DNA of 64,000 nucleotides from Polyangiaceae bacterium. Its GTDB lineage: Bacteria > Myxococcota_A > Polyangia > Polyangiales > Polyangiaceae. A program made the position numbers and the translations under genes. Where the stretch lies: the NCBI GenBank assembly GCA_019637265.1, contig JAHBVY010000006.1, positions 1 through 64,000 on the forward strand, read 5' to 3'. Below, one piece after another: positions 18,775 through 25,184 of the stretch (the stretch's first letter is position 1; the number at the start of each line of letters is the position of its first letter). Below the pieces are notes generated by a model. That model worked only from the letters and a program-made list of their open reading frames with translations. It did no database searches and was not told where the DNA came from.

Positions 18775-19146
18775 ATGAGTCGAGCCATTTTGGACGAGGC
18801 GCGCATCCACCCGGCGATCCGTGAGCGCATCGCGGCGAACCATCGAGACATCGTGGAGGAGGTGGAGCGCGCCGTTTCGGCGCACGACGTGGTGGTGGTG
18901 GGGATGAAGCAGAACCCCGTCCCTCGCAAGGCGCGGGCGCTGCTCGAGCGTGAGGGCATCGCCTTCGAGTACCTCGAGTATGGGAGTTACTTGAACACGT
19001 GGCGGCGTCGCAACGCGCTCAAGATGTGGACAGGTTGGCCTACCTTCCCGATGATCTTCATCAAGGGGCAGCTGATCGGCGGCTTCGAGGACTTGCAGGC
19101 GCTGGTGAGCTCTGGCGCGCTGCGAGAGCTGCTCGGCGAGCGCTGA
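18775..19146 (+). CDS. Glutaredoxin-like protein lacking active-site cysteines
   Basis: A 123-residue protein with a clear glutaredoxin fold: VVVVGMKQNPVPRKARALLE at the active-site position, the WTGWPTFPMIFIKGQ strand with the cis-proline, and the LIGGFEDLQAL glutathione-site motif. Where CPYC or CGFS is expected it reads NPVPRK, and the whole protein has no cysteine. It therefore cannot do thiol-disulfide exchange and may bind glutathione or a partner protein only. It ends directly before the GTG of mutH, so both are probably one transcript. Confidence 0.85.
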   Translation: MSRAILDEARIHPAIRERIAANHRDIVEEVERAVSAHDVVVVGMKQNPVPRKARALLEREGIAFEYLEYGSYLNTWRRRNALKMWTGWPTFPMIFIKGQLIGGFEDLQALVSSGALRELLGER

Positions 19147-19938
19147 GTGTCGCGCCGCCGGTCGGATCCTGCTGACTCATCGGGCGCGCCCGACGCTGCT
19201 TCGACGGATCCATCGAGCCTCACCGCAGCGCAGCGGGGCGCTCCAAGCGCGGCTCGGGTGCCGGTCTTCGTCGCGCCGCCTGCGAGCGAGGCGGAGCTCG
19301 TCAGTCGCGCTGAGCAGCTCGCGGGGGAGCCGCTCGGCGTGCTCGCAGCACGCGTGGGTTGGGAGGCGCCAGCGGACCTCAGGCGGCACAAGGGCTTCAC
19401 CGGGCAGCTGATGGAGCGACTGCTCGGGGCCACGGGGGGCTCGCGCGCCGTCGCGGATTTTCCGGAGCTCGGCGTGGAATTGAAGACCTTGCCCGTGGAC
19501 GCGCGGGGGGTGCCGAGTGAGTCGACCTTCGTGACGAGCATCCCGCTCGGGGAGATCGGCGACGTGGAGTTCGAGCAGTCGCGCGTGGTGCGCAAGCTCT
19601 CGCGGGTGCTGTGGGTGCCAGTGGAGGGCACGCGCTCGCTGCCGGTGGCGGAGCGGCGCGTGGGGACGCCGCTCATCTGGAGCCCGAGCGCGGAGGAGCT
19701 CAGTGTGCTGCGGAGCGATTGGGAGTCACTCTGCCTGCTCATCGCGCAGGGGCAGGTGGAGTCGGTCACGGGGCACCTGGGGCGCTACCTTCAGGTGCGC
19801 CCCAAGGCGCGCGATGGCAGCGCGCGGCGCGTGGCTTACGACGAAGATGGCGCGCGCTTGCTGGCGAATCCGCGCGGTTTCTACCTGCGGGCGCGCTTCA
19901 CGCAGCAGATCCTGGCGCGGCACTTCCGTTTGGGCTGA
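19147..19938 (+). CDS. mutH: MutH-type DNA mismatch repair endonuclease
   Basis: A 263-residue protein. After a 35-residue disordered N-terminus, residues about 45-260 match MutH throughout: KGFTGQLMERLLGATGGSRAV, DFPELGVELKTLPVD, ESTFVTSIPL, RKLSRVLWVPVEG, TPLIWSPSAEE and the C-terminal RFTQQILARHF helix. The catalytic triad is intact as D104, E111 and K113, with the same spacing as E. coli D70/E77/K79. MutH nicks the unmethylated strand at hemimethylated GATC when activated by MutS/MutL. No dam, mutS or mutL is in the window. It starts at GTG adjacent to the previous stop. Confidence 0.93.
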   Translation: MSRRRSDPADSSGAPDAASTDPSSLTAAQRGAPSAARVPVFVAPPASEAELVSRAEQLAGEPLGVLAARVGWEAPADLRRHKGFTGQLMERLLGATGGSRAVADFPELGVELKTLPVDARGVPSESTFVTSIPLGEIGDVEFEQSRVVRKLSRVLWVPVEGTRSLPVAERRVGTPLIWSPSAEELSVLRSDWESLCLLIAQGQVESVTGHLGRYLQVRPKARDGSARRVAYDEDGARLLANPRGFYLRARFTQQILARHFRLG

Positions 19939-19969: not shown

Positions 19970-20000
19970 AGCACGACAACGGTAGCCCGTTCGTCGTGCT
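19970..20000. repeat. REP-like hairpin between mutH and the radical SAM gene
   Basis: AGCACGACAACGG and CCGTTCGTCGTGCT pair over a TAGC loop with a single bulge. The arm core CGACGAACGG/CCGTTCGTCG recurs in the hairpin at 59478. No T-run follows. The GTG at 19996 lies inside the 3' arm, which argues for a later start of the next gene. Confidence 0.6.
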
Positions 20001-20013
20001 AGAGTGGGTAGGC

Positions 20014-21240
20014 TTGGCGAACATCGGCTACATCCAAGTGGTGAGGCACTGTAACCACTTCTGTGGCTTCTGCTCCAACCCCACCACGCCCTACACCCAC
20101 ACCTTCGAGAGCATGAAGGTGCTGGTGGATGATTTCGTCAGGCGCGGTTACTTTGGCGTGATCTTGACGGGGGGTGAGCCCACGCTGCACCCGGAGCTGC
20201 CGCGCATCTGCGCTTACGCGCGCGACCAGGGGCTGCACGTCCGCATGATCACCAACGGCTCGCGCCTGGCGGATCCTGAGTTCGCGCGTGAGATGAGCGA
20301 GGCGGGGCTCCAGCTGGTGCACGTGTCCGTGTACAGCACGCGGCCCGAGGTGGAGGCGGTGCTGCGCGGCATGCAAGGCAGCCTGCCCAAGGCCTTCGCC
20401 GCGGTGAAGAACGCGCATGAGCACGGCGTGGAGGTGAACATCAACTGCGTGATCAACAAGCTCAACGCGGATCACCTCCACGAGAACATCGAATACTGGA
20501 TAGAGCACCACCCTTACATCCGCCATTTCGTCTGGAACAACCTGGACCCTTCCATGGGGCGGGCGGAGGTGAATCAAGCCGAGTTCACCCCGCGCCTGCG
20601 AGACTTCGAGGTAAGCTTGTTCCGCGCGCTGAGCCTGCTCTACAAGAGCGGGCGCACATTCCGCGTGGAAAAGGTACCGCTCTGCTACATGACGGAGTTC
20701 GCCTGGGCCAGCACGGAGACGCGGAAGATCGTGAAGGGGGAGGAGCGCATCGTTCACTTCCTCGATCAAAAGCAGACCGTGCGCCAGACGGATTGGGAGC
20801 ACATCTACGCGGGGGGCTGCTCGCACTGCTCGCTCCGCACCATCTGCGGTGGGCTGTTCGATCGCGGCAATGGCTATGACCCAGCGGAGCTCGCGCCGGT
20901 GTTCGTGGATCGCGACGCCATCGTGCTCCGCATCCTCAAAGACGAGACGGACCCGAGTTACCGGTTCAAGTCGCTCGCGGCGTGGCGCGCCGACTTCGAG
21001 CAGCGTTGCCAGGAGACGCTGGAGGGGCGCGCCGAGAAGCGACCCGCGGGCGCAGAGGAGCCCAGCCGCGATCCGAATGGGCCAGGAGCGATGGCGCGCT
21101 TCTCTTTGAACGGCGGGCCGGCGGTGGGTCAGATCACGCCGGAGGGTCAGCGGCTGTACGAGGCCAAGCGCCGCGCGGAGGCGAAGAAGGCCGATCGCCT
21201 CGGCGTGCGTCTGGAGCGCGCCGAGCTGGAAGACAAATGA
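20014..21240 (+). CDS. Radical SAM protein with C-terminal cysteine-rich region
   Basis: A 408-residue enzyme. The [4Fe-4S] ligands are CNHFCGFC near residues 13-20, followed by the GGEP loop (LTGGEPTLHPEL) and the SAM-binding strands MITNGS and HVSVYSTRPEV. A C-terminal CSHCSLRTICGGLFDRG segment near residue 270 resembles a twitch/SPASM-type auxiliary cluster region. The last 60 residues are charged. The family is radical SAM/SPASM-like of unknown substrate. TTG 20014 (MANIGYIQ) is preferred because GTG 19996 is inside a hairpin; the latter would add six residues. Confidence 0.85.
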   Translation: MANIGYIQVVRHCNHFCGFCSNPTTPYTHTFESMKVLVDDFVRRGYFGVILTGGEPTLHPELPRICAYARDQGLHVRMITNGSRLADPEFAREMSEAGLQLVHVSVYSTRPEVEAVLRGMQGSLPKAFAAVKNAHEHGVEVNINCVINKLNADHLHENIEYWIEHHPYIRHFVWNNLDPSMGRAEVNQAEFTPRLRDFEVSLFRALSLLYKSGRTFRVEKVPLCYMTEFAWASTETRKIVKGEERIVHFLDQKQTVRQTDWEHIYAGGCSHCSLRTICGGLFDRGNGYDPAELAPVFVDRDAIVLRILKDETDPSYRFKSLAAWRADFEQRCQETLEGRAEKRPAGAEEPSRDPNGPGAMARFSLNGGPAVGQITPEGQRLYEAKRRAEAKKADRLGVRLERAELEDK

Positions 21241-23646: not shown

Positions 23647-24231
23647 ATGACCGCCGCCACACAGCCCGAGCTCAACCCGGGGCAGACGTATCGCACGCGT
23701 GACCTCGCTCGCTGGGGAAGGAACCCGGCGCGGCTGGCCCGGCGCCTCGTGCGTGAGGGGCGGCTGCGCGAGGTCACCCACGGTCTCTACTACACGCCGA
23801 TGCCGTCCAAGTTCGGCCCAGCACCAGTCTCGGACGAGGTGCTGCTGCGCGCCTTCCTCAATGGTGAGCCGTTCATCATCTCGGGCTCGCCACGTTGGAA
23901 CCCGCTCGGCCTCGGCTCGACAGCGATGTTCGCGTCGACGCTCGTCTACAACACCTTGCGCACGGGCGAATTCAAGCTCGCTGGGCGCACCTTCGTGTTG
24001 CGCCGGGTCTACTTCCCCGAGAAGCCCACGCCCGAGTGGTTCGTGGTGGACCTGCTCAAGCACCACGACATGGCGGGCATCGGGCTGAGCGAGGTGCGCG
24101 CGAACCTCGTGGACACGCTGCGGCTCGGACGTTGGAACGTCGAGCGGCTGCGTGAGATGGCTGCCACCTACGGCACGAAGGCGATCGCCGCTCTCATCGA
24201 CGAGTGCATCGTGGAGGCACGCGCCTCGTGA
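23647..24231 (+). CDS. AbiEi-type antitoxin/transcriptional repressor
   Basis: A 194-residue protein with an N-terminal winged helix (about 10-60: TYRTRDLARWGRNPARLARRLVREGRLREVTHGLYYTP) and a C-terminal domain with ISGSPRWNPLGLGSTAMF and ALIDECIVEARAS. This is the architecture of type IV antitoxin AbiEi. Its stop overlaps the GTG of the toxin gene by four bases (GTGA). It should repress the operon and counter the nucleotidyltransferase. Confidence 0.85.
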   Translation: MTAATQPELNPGQTYRTRDLARWGRNPARLARRLVREGRLREVTHGLYYTPMPSKFGPAPVSDEVLLRAFLNGEPFIISGSPRWNPLGLGSTAMFASTLVYNTLRTGEFKLAGRTFVLRRVYFPEKPTPEWFVVDLLKHHDMAGIGLSEVRANLVDTLRLGRWNVERLREMAATYGTKAIAALIDECIVEARAS

Positions 24232-25184
24232 GCTTCATCCACGACGATCCCGAGTTCGCGAAGCTCTTGCAACTCGTCACCGACGAGACGCGCATCGATC
24301 CTTCGCTCGTCGAGAAGGACTACTGGGTCACTCACTGCATGTGGGCGATCCACCAGACGGGCCTCGACCTCTGGTTCAAGGGCGGCACCAGCCTCTCGAA
24401 GGGCTATGGCGTCATTCGGCGGTTCTCGGAGGACCTCGACCTGATGGTTCAGCACGGCAGCGTCGCAGGACTTCCTCCCGTGACGAACTGGACCAGCGTG
24501 AACAAGGGGCCGATCGCAGCGCGCCGCGCGTTCTACGAGGCGCTCCCCAGCGCGTTCGTCATCCCCGGCGTGAAGGTTGAGCTCGACGAGCGCACGCAGG
24601 ACAAGTACGCGCGCGGCATCAACCTCATCGGCCGCTACCCGGGTCGGATGCTCGCCGACATTGCAGAAGCAATGAGGCCCTACGTGCTCTTCGAGATTGG
24701 CCGCGCGCGTGTCGTTCCATTTGTCGAGAAGCCGCTCACCTCATTCGTTCATGACCTTCTCGAGCGTCGCGGTCAGCTCGGCGCATACGCTGACAATCGC
24801 CCGCGCGCCGTGCGTTGTGTGCACCCTTTGGTGACGCTGCTCGAAAAGCTCGACGCGCTGTCGCGCCGGTATGGCCGAGAGAGAATCGAGCCTGACGGCT
24901 TCGCGCGACACTACGAGGATGCGGCGCAGATCATCCGGGCGCTGTCGAAGCTGCCTCCCGCTTCGCTGTCGCCACGCGCGCTCGCCGACGAGATGCTCGG
25001 CGAGAAGGACCTCGTGGCGATCCCCAGCCCCGACGAGCCCGCGCTGGTGCTGAGCGACGGCGAGCGTCGGGCGGCCGTCGAGCGTGCGCTCGCGCGCATC
25101 CAGACGATGTTCTGGGGGCCGCGCATTCCCGTCGACGAAGCCTGCGAGACGATCCGTGAGTGGATTCGGGGGAACCTCGGATGA
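24228..25184 (+). CDS. AbiEii-type nucleotidyltransferase toxin
   Basis: A 318-residue protein of the AbiEii/AbiGii family. The nucleotidyltransferase motif is intact: FKGGTSLSKGYGVIRRFSEDLDLMV, with the GGTSLSK and the D-x-D pair; LVEKDYWVTH precedes it and KLDALSRRYGRE follows as the usual lysine-containing motif. Family members transfer nucleotides to targets such as tRNA and stop growth, giving phage abortive infection. Start at GTG overlapping the antitoxin stop; end overlapping the next ATG. Confidence 0.9.
   Translation: MSFIHDDPEFAKLLQLVTDETRIDPSLVEKDYWVTHCMWAIHQTGLDLWFKGGTSLSKGYGVIRRFSEDLDLMVQHGSVAGLPPVTNWTSVNKGPIAARRAFYEALPSAFVIPGVKVELDERTQDKYARGINLIGRYPGRMLADIAEAMRPYVLFEIGRARVVPFVEKPLTSFVHDLLERRGQLGAYADNRPRAVRCVHPLVTLLEKLDALSRRYGRERIEPDGFARHYEDAAQIIRALSKLPPASLSPRALADEMLGEKDLVAIPSPDEPALVLSDGERRAAVERALARIQTMFWGPRIPVDEACETIREWIRGNLG

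Follow-up and report, generated by a model that had tools for sequence, protein, structure and literature searches.

Methyl-directed mismatch repair is described as restricted to Gammaproteobacteria related to E. coli in the available excerpt of one study (PMC8235422). The MutL of bacteria that lack MutH carries an endonuclease site, D(Q/M)HA(X)2E(X)4E, which a review describes as missing from the MutL of organisms that have MutH (PMC8744996). In NgoL, the residue at the last position of this motif forms a salt bridge with a preceding arginine, according to the available section of the source (PMC2965676). MutH-like enzymes outside Myxococcota and Pseudomonadota are already in print, since an excerpt of another paper reports a MutH-like restriction gene in a protist mitochondrion whose best match is flavobacterial (PMC8099122). 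A search of PubMed Central (open-licence papers, with subscription journals and preprints mostly outside it) found no paper on MutH in myxobacteria or Myxococcota among the titles listed.

The stretch of DNA analysed here (64,000 nucleotides, hereafter the window) carries a mutH gene. Sequence comparisons indicate that this genome combines Dam and MutH with a MutL that keeps the endonuclease site, an unusual combination that, judged by motifs, is common in Myxococcota.

Host genome

The window genome comprises 5.7 Mb in 21 contigs, with the window on contig C18. Among named relatives, a Polyangia MAG (71% identity) and a Polyangiaceae MAG (L032, 63%) have the closest MutH. L032 and G111, the latter belonging to the same family as the window genome (f1), have identical MutH proteins. 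The lineage is therefore Myxococcota, in line with the probable myxobacterium proposed in the initial annotation, and the same relationships identify the searched phylum genomes as Myxococcota.

MutH is best known from Gammaproteobacteria, and the gene might be a contaminant of the bin from that class, an origin that had also been considered for the contig as a whole. Against this, the genome is 98.51% complete and 0.42% contaminated, G+C is even across the 64 kb around mutH, and an unrooted MutH tree refutes it. In this tree, the window MutH groups most closely with members of its own family or with named Polyangia, and a starred branch separates the 43 Pseudomonadota rows from the 109 Myxococcota rows. 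Contamination retains almost no credibility.

Identity of the MutH gene

The reading frame at 19147-19938 is uninterrupted over 263 codons (Table 1). Its product passes the cut-offs of both MutH equivalog models (NCBIfam NF003458, 281.2 bits against 243; TIGR02248, 244.8 bits against 229.9), matches the Pfam MutH family at 1.8e-29, and aligns with E. coli MutH (2azo) over residues 41-261 with an E-value of 1.1e-67, values that make a chance match untenable. An AlphaFold2 model of the protein (mean pLDDT 82.7) superposes on E. coli MutH with a Z-score of 31.5 and an rmsd of 1.5 over 225 residues, and on the MutH–DNA complexes 2aoq and 2aor with Z-scores of 31.2 and 30.5. The structural alignment pairs E. 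coli residues 3-229 with residues 37-263 of the model, giving an offset of 34.

Table 1. Features of mutH and its neighbours in the window
Feature	Position	Strand	Basis or correspondence
Glutaredoxin-fold protein, no cysteine, directly upstream of mutH	18775-19146	+	Family models
mutH ORF, 263 aa	19147-19938	+	Reading frame, family models, alignment, structure model
Catalytic D104 (19456-19458), E111 (19477-19479), K113 (19483-19485)	19456-19485	+	E. coli D70, E77, K79
R218-P219-K220	19798-19806	+	E. coli R184-P185-K186
Y246	19882-19884	+	E. coli Y212
Radical SAM protein, downstream of mutH	19996-21240	+	Also downstream in nearest relative L031
AbiEi/AbiEii-like toxin-antitoxin pair	23647-24231, 24204-25184	+	AbiEii 84.1 bits; AbiEi match below cut-off

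All three catalytic residues are present, which bears out the intact triad reported in the initial annotation. Across the 109 other Myxococcota MutH loci that were aligned, D104 is conserved in every one, and E111 and K113 in 106 each. Residues R218, P219 and K220, whose E. coli counterparts we take from MutH–DNA structures to contact GATC, are conserved in 109, 106 and 107 of these loci, and Y246, the counterpart of a tyrosine that presumably senses adenine methylation, in 108. On family models, residues and modelled fold, 19147-19938 encodes a genuine MutH. The loci that lack the equivalents of E111 and K113 are three divergent copies of a single family code, f35. MutH-like proteins in this family (e.g. 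L383-L385) are divergent, and in two of its genomes, G212 and G057, the gene shares a contig with mutL, at a distance of about 10 kb.

The MutH fold is shared with restriction enzymes of the Sau3AI type, whose target we take to be GATC. The window protein accordingly resembles Sau3AI in structure (Z-score 20.0) and scores 53.8 bits with the NCBIfam Sau3AI model. That score is, however, far below the cut-off of 300, in contrast to the passing of both MutH equivalog cut-offs, and the protein is of MutH length, has no second half and has no methylase adjoining it. Identity as a Sau3AI-type enzyme instead of MutH is very improbable.

Translation initiation and neighbouring genes

Residues 1-34 of the window MutH are modelled with pLDDT below 50, and the first 37 residues are mostly predicted to be disordered and have no conserved counterpart in the nearest relatives. 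Translation from an in-frame GTG at 19258 would yield a protein of 226 residues, about the length of E. coli MutH, and we consider this GTG a likelier start than the annotated one at 19147. Initiation there would separate mutH from its upstream neighbour, and the zero-gap coupling between the two genes may not exist.

The initial annotation had described mutH as coupled to a glutaredoxin-like gene. The upstream protein contains no cysteine at all, and is therefore no glutaredoxin of the ordinary redox kind. A search of 190 MutH loci, within their available flanks, places this glutaredoxin beside MutH at the window locus only; the arrangement is not conserved, and a functional link between the two proteins was rejected. 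A radical SAM gene lies beside mutH in the window and in L031, again among 190 loci within the available flanks. In L031, the gene upstream of mutH reads by eye as a divergent acyl-CoA-dehydrogenase-like gene instead.

Dam, MutS1 and MutL in the window genome

The observation that no dam, mutS or mutL lies near mutH stands for the locus but not for the genome, where a search for the three genes, as the initial annotation had suggested, located all of them on other contigs. Dam is encoded at G000:C19:161677-162462 (263.8 bits, with the cut-off at 114.85) and keeps the DPPY motif. Among solved structures it best matches the DpnII methylase (chain 2dpm, 3e-59) and Dam of the E. coli type (3e-50), both of which presumably methylate GATC. 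No restriction enzyme is obvious beside dam among neighbouring ORFs of at least 200 aa, which appear kinase-like by eye. MutS1 scores 848 bits against a cut-off of 641.7. The mutL gene, on G000:C21, encodes 723 aa and adjoins a gene named miaA-like by eye. Two UvrD/PcrA-like helicases, at 650 and 541 bits, fall short of the cut-off of 1144 for E. coli-type UvrD; one of 14 control genomes passes this cut-off. Dam, MutS1, MutL and MutH are all present in this genome with their motifs intact, and the co-occurrence of the first three with MutH favours the first of the two alternatives offered in the initial annotation, that methyl-directed repair exists in this lineage.

GATC density is normal, with an observed/expected ratio of 0.94 and 6.0 sites per kb over 425,690 bases of the window genome. 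The window itself holds 409 sites, the longest gap being 1226 bases. With GATC at about its expected frequency and gaps of this size, a site lies within reach of almost every mismatch. Across 13 family codes, each with more than 20 kb of sequence, the ratio ranges from 0.89 to 1.18; GATC avoidance, considered as a sign of restriction, was rejected on these values.

Distribution of MutH and Dam in Myxococcota

Of 377 Myxococcota genomes, 128 have MutH, the window genome included, and the MutH sequence was read in 110 of these 128. For comparison, in a phylum-wide set around a Vibrio (itself included), MutH occurs in 35 of 319 genomes. Twelve of the 128 matches, all in f35 and f46, score below 50 bits and may not be ordinary MutH. 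Dam matches (E-values up to 1e-3) occur in 226 of the 377 genomes, 214 of them above the cut-off, and SeqA was found in none of the 377. The presence of Dam in so many genomes and of SeqA in none points to a role for Dam in Myxococcota that is independent of SeqA.

A Dam match accompanies MutH in 110 of 128 genomes and is present in 116 of the 249 genomes that lack MutH (Fisher p 3e-14, a value that is uncorrected for relatedness and does not count as independent evidence given the non-significant result of the controlled comparison). In relatedness-controlled pairs drawn from the MutL N-terminal tree, 3.9 pairs on average show MutH and Dam changing in the same direction and 0.5 the other way (median p 0.25). 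MutH is common among relatives with Dam, and the new role for the nuclease that had been proposed as the second alternative is therefore unneeded.

Another possibility is that nicking is the work of MutL, with MutH either a relic or turned to other tasks, such as GATC-specific defence or the processing of unmethylated DNA. It gains from the 18 MutH genomes in which no Dam match was found, which show that MutH is not always accompanied by a recognised Dam. A wider D12 methylase model, limited to the D12 class, matches in three of these 18 and in none of the other 15, which include the one-contig genome G150. The catalytic, GATC-contacting and methyl-sensing residues of MutH are nonetheless near-universal, which does not fit a relic, the window genome has Dam, and the loss of the MutL endonuclease site in several MutH-bearing clades suggests that MutH can do the job alone. 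A relic or repurposed MutH is improbable.

Family f25 (G013, G018, G023, G033, G042, G062, G072, G116, G150, G187) has MutH and no Dam or other D12 methylase. MutL motifs are intact in this family, and GATC is not avoided (0.95).

The MutL endonuclease site

The MutL of the window genome carries the motifs DQHAAAERVTFD, ACHGSVR and CPHGRP, together with QALLFP, which resembles a clamp-binding motif. All six metal-site residues (D, H and E; C; C and H) are present. The last glutamate of DQHA(X)2E(X)4E is replaced by aspartate.

This replacement bears on a wholly E. coli-like form of repair, in which MutH would be the sole nickase and the MutL motifs would serve folding or zinc binding rather than catalysis. 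The substitution favours such a scheme, as does the state of the site elsewhere: among 111 readable MutH-bearing genomes of the phylum, it is intact in 54, lost in 47 and degenerate in 10. Degradation in so many MutH-bearing lineages suggests that selection on the MutL site is weak once MutH is present. In the window's own family, which has a Dam match in all 23 MutH-bearing genomes, the site is intact in 17 and lost or degenerate in six, and is therefore dispensable in some of them.

Other observations weigh against a sole MutH nickase. Among 28 intact MutLs of genomes that lack MutH, 18 end the motif in E and 10 in H, Q, A or S, which indicates that this glutamate is dispensable even in MutLs that have to nick. 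By analogy with the salt bridge described in the available section on NgoL (PMC2965676), the aspartate of the window MutL could form the same contact with the preceding arginine. In addition, all six metal residues are invariant across ten MutL rows of the window's subclade, which were picked by tree and not by motif, against 75 of 167 C-terminal columns (chance about 0.008). This invariance argues mildly for selection on the site. A similar count over 19 MutLs from f1 and named genomes was rejected as circular, the rows having been picked for intactness. Repair by MutH alone is unlikely, though a real contender beside a scheme in which both MutH and MutL nick.

Among control genomes, the DQHA and CPHGRP motifs are absent from MutL in all 23 MutH-bearing Gammaproteobacteria; the control search covered 29 genomes, of which two are Polyangia and four have no MutL_C match. 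Both named Polyangia relatives have an intact site.

The MutL readings cover 113 of the 128 genomes with MutH, two of them incomplete, and 49 of the 249 that lack it, nine of them incomplete. The latter are a non-random set in which 21 were chosen for weak or missing MutL_C matches and the rest have strong ones. The class of intact sites required agreement of alignment and motif; three MutH-bearing genomes (G376, G092 and G142) are degenerate under this definition and intact by alignment alone. Genomes with MutH and a Dam match divide into 43 intact, 43 lost, nine degenerate and two incomplete, and those with MutH and no Dam match into 11 intact, four lost, one degenerate and none incomplete. 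Without MutH, the counts are 18 intact, two lost and three incomplete where Dam is matched, and 10 intact, 10 lost and six incomplete where it is not. Independent pairs controlled for relatedness give a median p of 0.625 for the association between the MutL site and MutH.

Evolutionary history

The MutL tree requires at least 15 changes of state for the endonuclease site. Lost sites fall in separate MutH-bearing clades (f2, f1, f29/f31, f22, f35/f46, f45, f51, f54 and Gammaproteobacteria) and also in f13, one large family without MutH and Dam. Since regain of a multi-residue metal site is unlikely, we interpret this pattern as a series of losses, most of them in lineages that had MutH. The f13 genomes concerned (G089, G094, G125, G211, G216, G226, G351, G361, G363) have no MutH, no Dam match and a MutL without the endonuclease site. 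They would have repair of the MutS/MutL type with no recognised nickase, through either secondary loss of MutH or an unknown enzyme.

In the MutH tree, the median path is 2.49 between Myxococcota pairs, 1.32 between Pseudomonadota pairs and 2.48 across the two groups, a comparison from which three divergent f35 rows (G107, G212, G227) are omitted. The distance from gammaproteobacterial MutH to Myxococcota therefore does not exceed that within Myxococcota, and faster evolution in Myxococcota could yield the same path lengths. The trees were built by a quick method, the MutL tree without a mixture model, and the MutH tree has no outgroup and gives no direction of transfer.

One tentative scenario is that repair with two nickases, MutH and MutL, is old and widespread in Myxococcota, and that repair of the E. 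coli type with a nuclease-free MutL arose from such a state several times. The more diverse family would then be the myxobacterial one, with gammaproteobacterial MutH as one branch derived within it, and repair of the E. coli type may owe its origin to transfer from myxobacteria. This scenario is possible but doubtful.

Proposed repair mechanism

The favoured reading, with a probability of roughly 0.68, is that the window gene is a genuine mutH acting in methyl-directed mismatch repair, most likely with two nicking activities, those of MutH and MutL. Two activities are likely because MutL keeps both its metal-dependent endonuclease site and its clamp-binding motif. Judged from gene content, methyl-directed mismatch repair very probably exists in the lineage of the window genome.

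Dam, encoded elsewhere in the genome, would methylate GATC, leaving the new strand behind the fork transiently unmethylated. MutS would find the mismatch, and MutL, once loaded, would activate MutH, which would nick the unmethylated strand at GATC, with strand choice set by methylation. MutL could nick without GATC, as in repair of the Bacillus type, either to supply extra nicks or to act where the GATC marks are gone. A UvrD-like helicase and exonucleases would finish the repair. Methylation of GATC in the cell, coupling between MutL and MutH, and activity of both nucleases are steps that we infer from sequence.

About a third of the sampled Myxococcota genomes have MutH, mostly with a Dam match, and about half of those with a readable MutL keep its endonuclease site. 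As general rules, this pattern contradicts both the restriction to E. coli-related Gammaproteobacteria and the pairing of MutH with a nuclease-free MutL, as worded in the available excerpts (PMC8235422, PMC8744996). Myxococcota may represent natural intermediates in the evolution of E. coli repair from a form in which MutL nicks, and would allow both mechanisms of strand choice to be tested within one cell.

Comparison with known systems

The closest counterpart is the Dam–MutS–MutL–MutH system of E. coli, with which the window genome shares the catalytic and GATC-contacting residues of MutH and the presence of a D12-class Dam, MutS1 and MutL in one genome. It differs from this system in belonging to another phylum, in lacking SeqA, in having UvrD-like helicases below the E. 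coli-type cut-off, and in a MutL that keeps the endonuclease metal site missing from every gammaproteobacterial control (23 of 23). With the Sau3AI family of type II restriction enzymes, the window MutH has the MutH/Sau3AI fold in common, but it falls far short of the Sau3AI cut-off, is shorter and has no adjacent methylase. The DQHA(X)2E, ACH and CPHGRP motifs of MutL and its clamp-binding-like motif resemble the MutH-independent repair of Bacillus subtilis and Neisseria. Unlike those systems, the window genome also has MutH and Dam, so that a methylation-based strand signal would be available to it.
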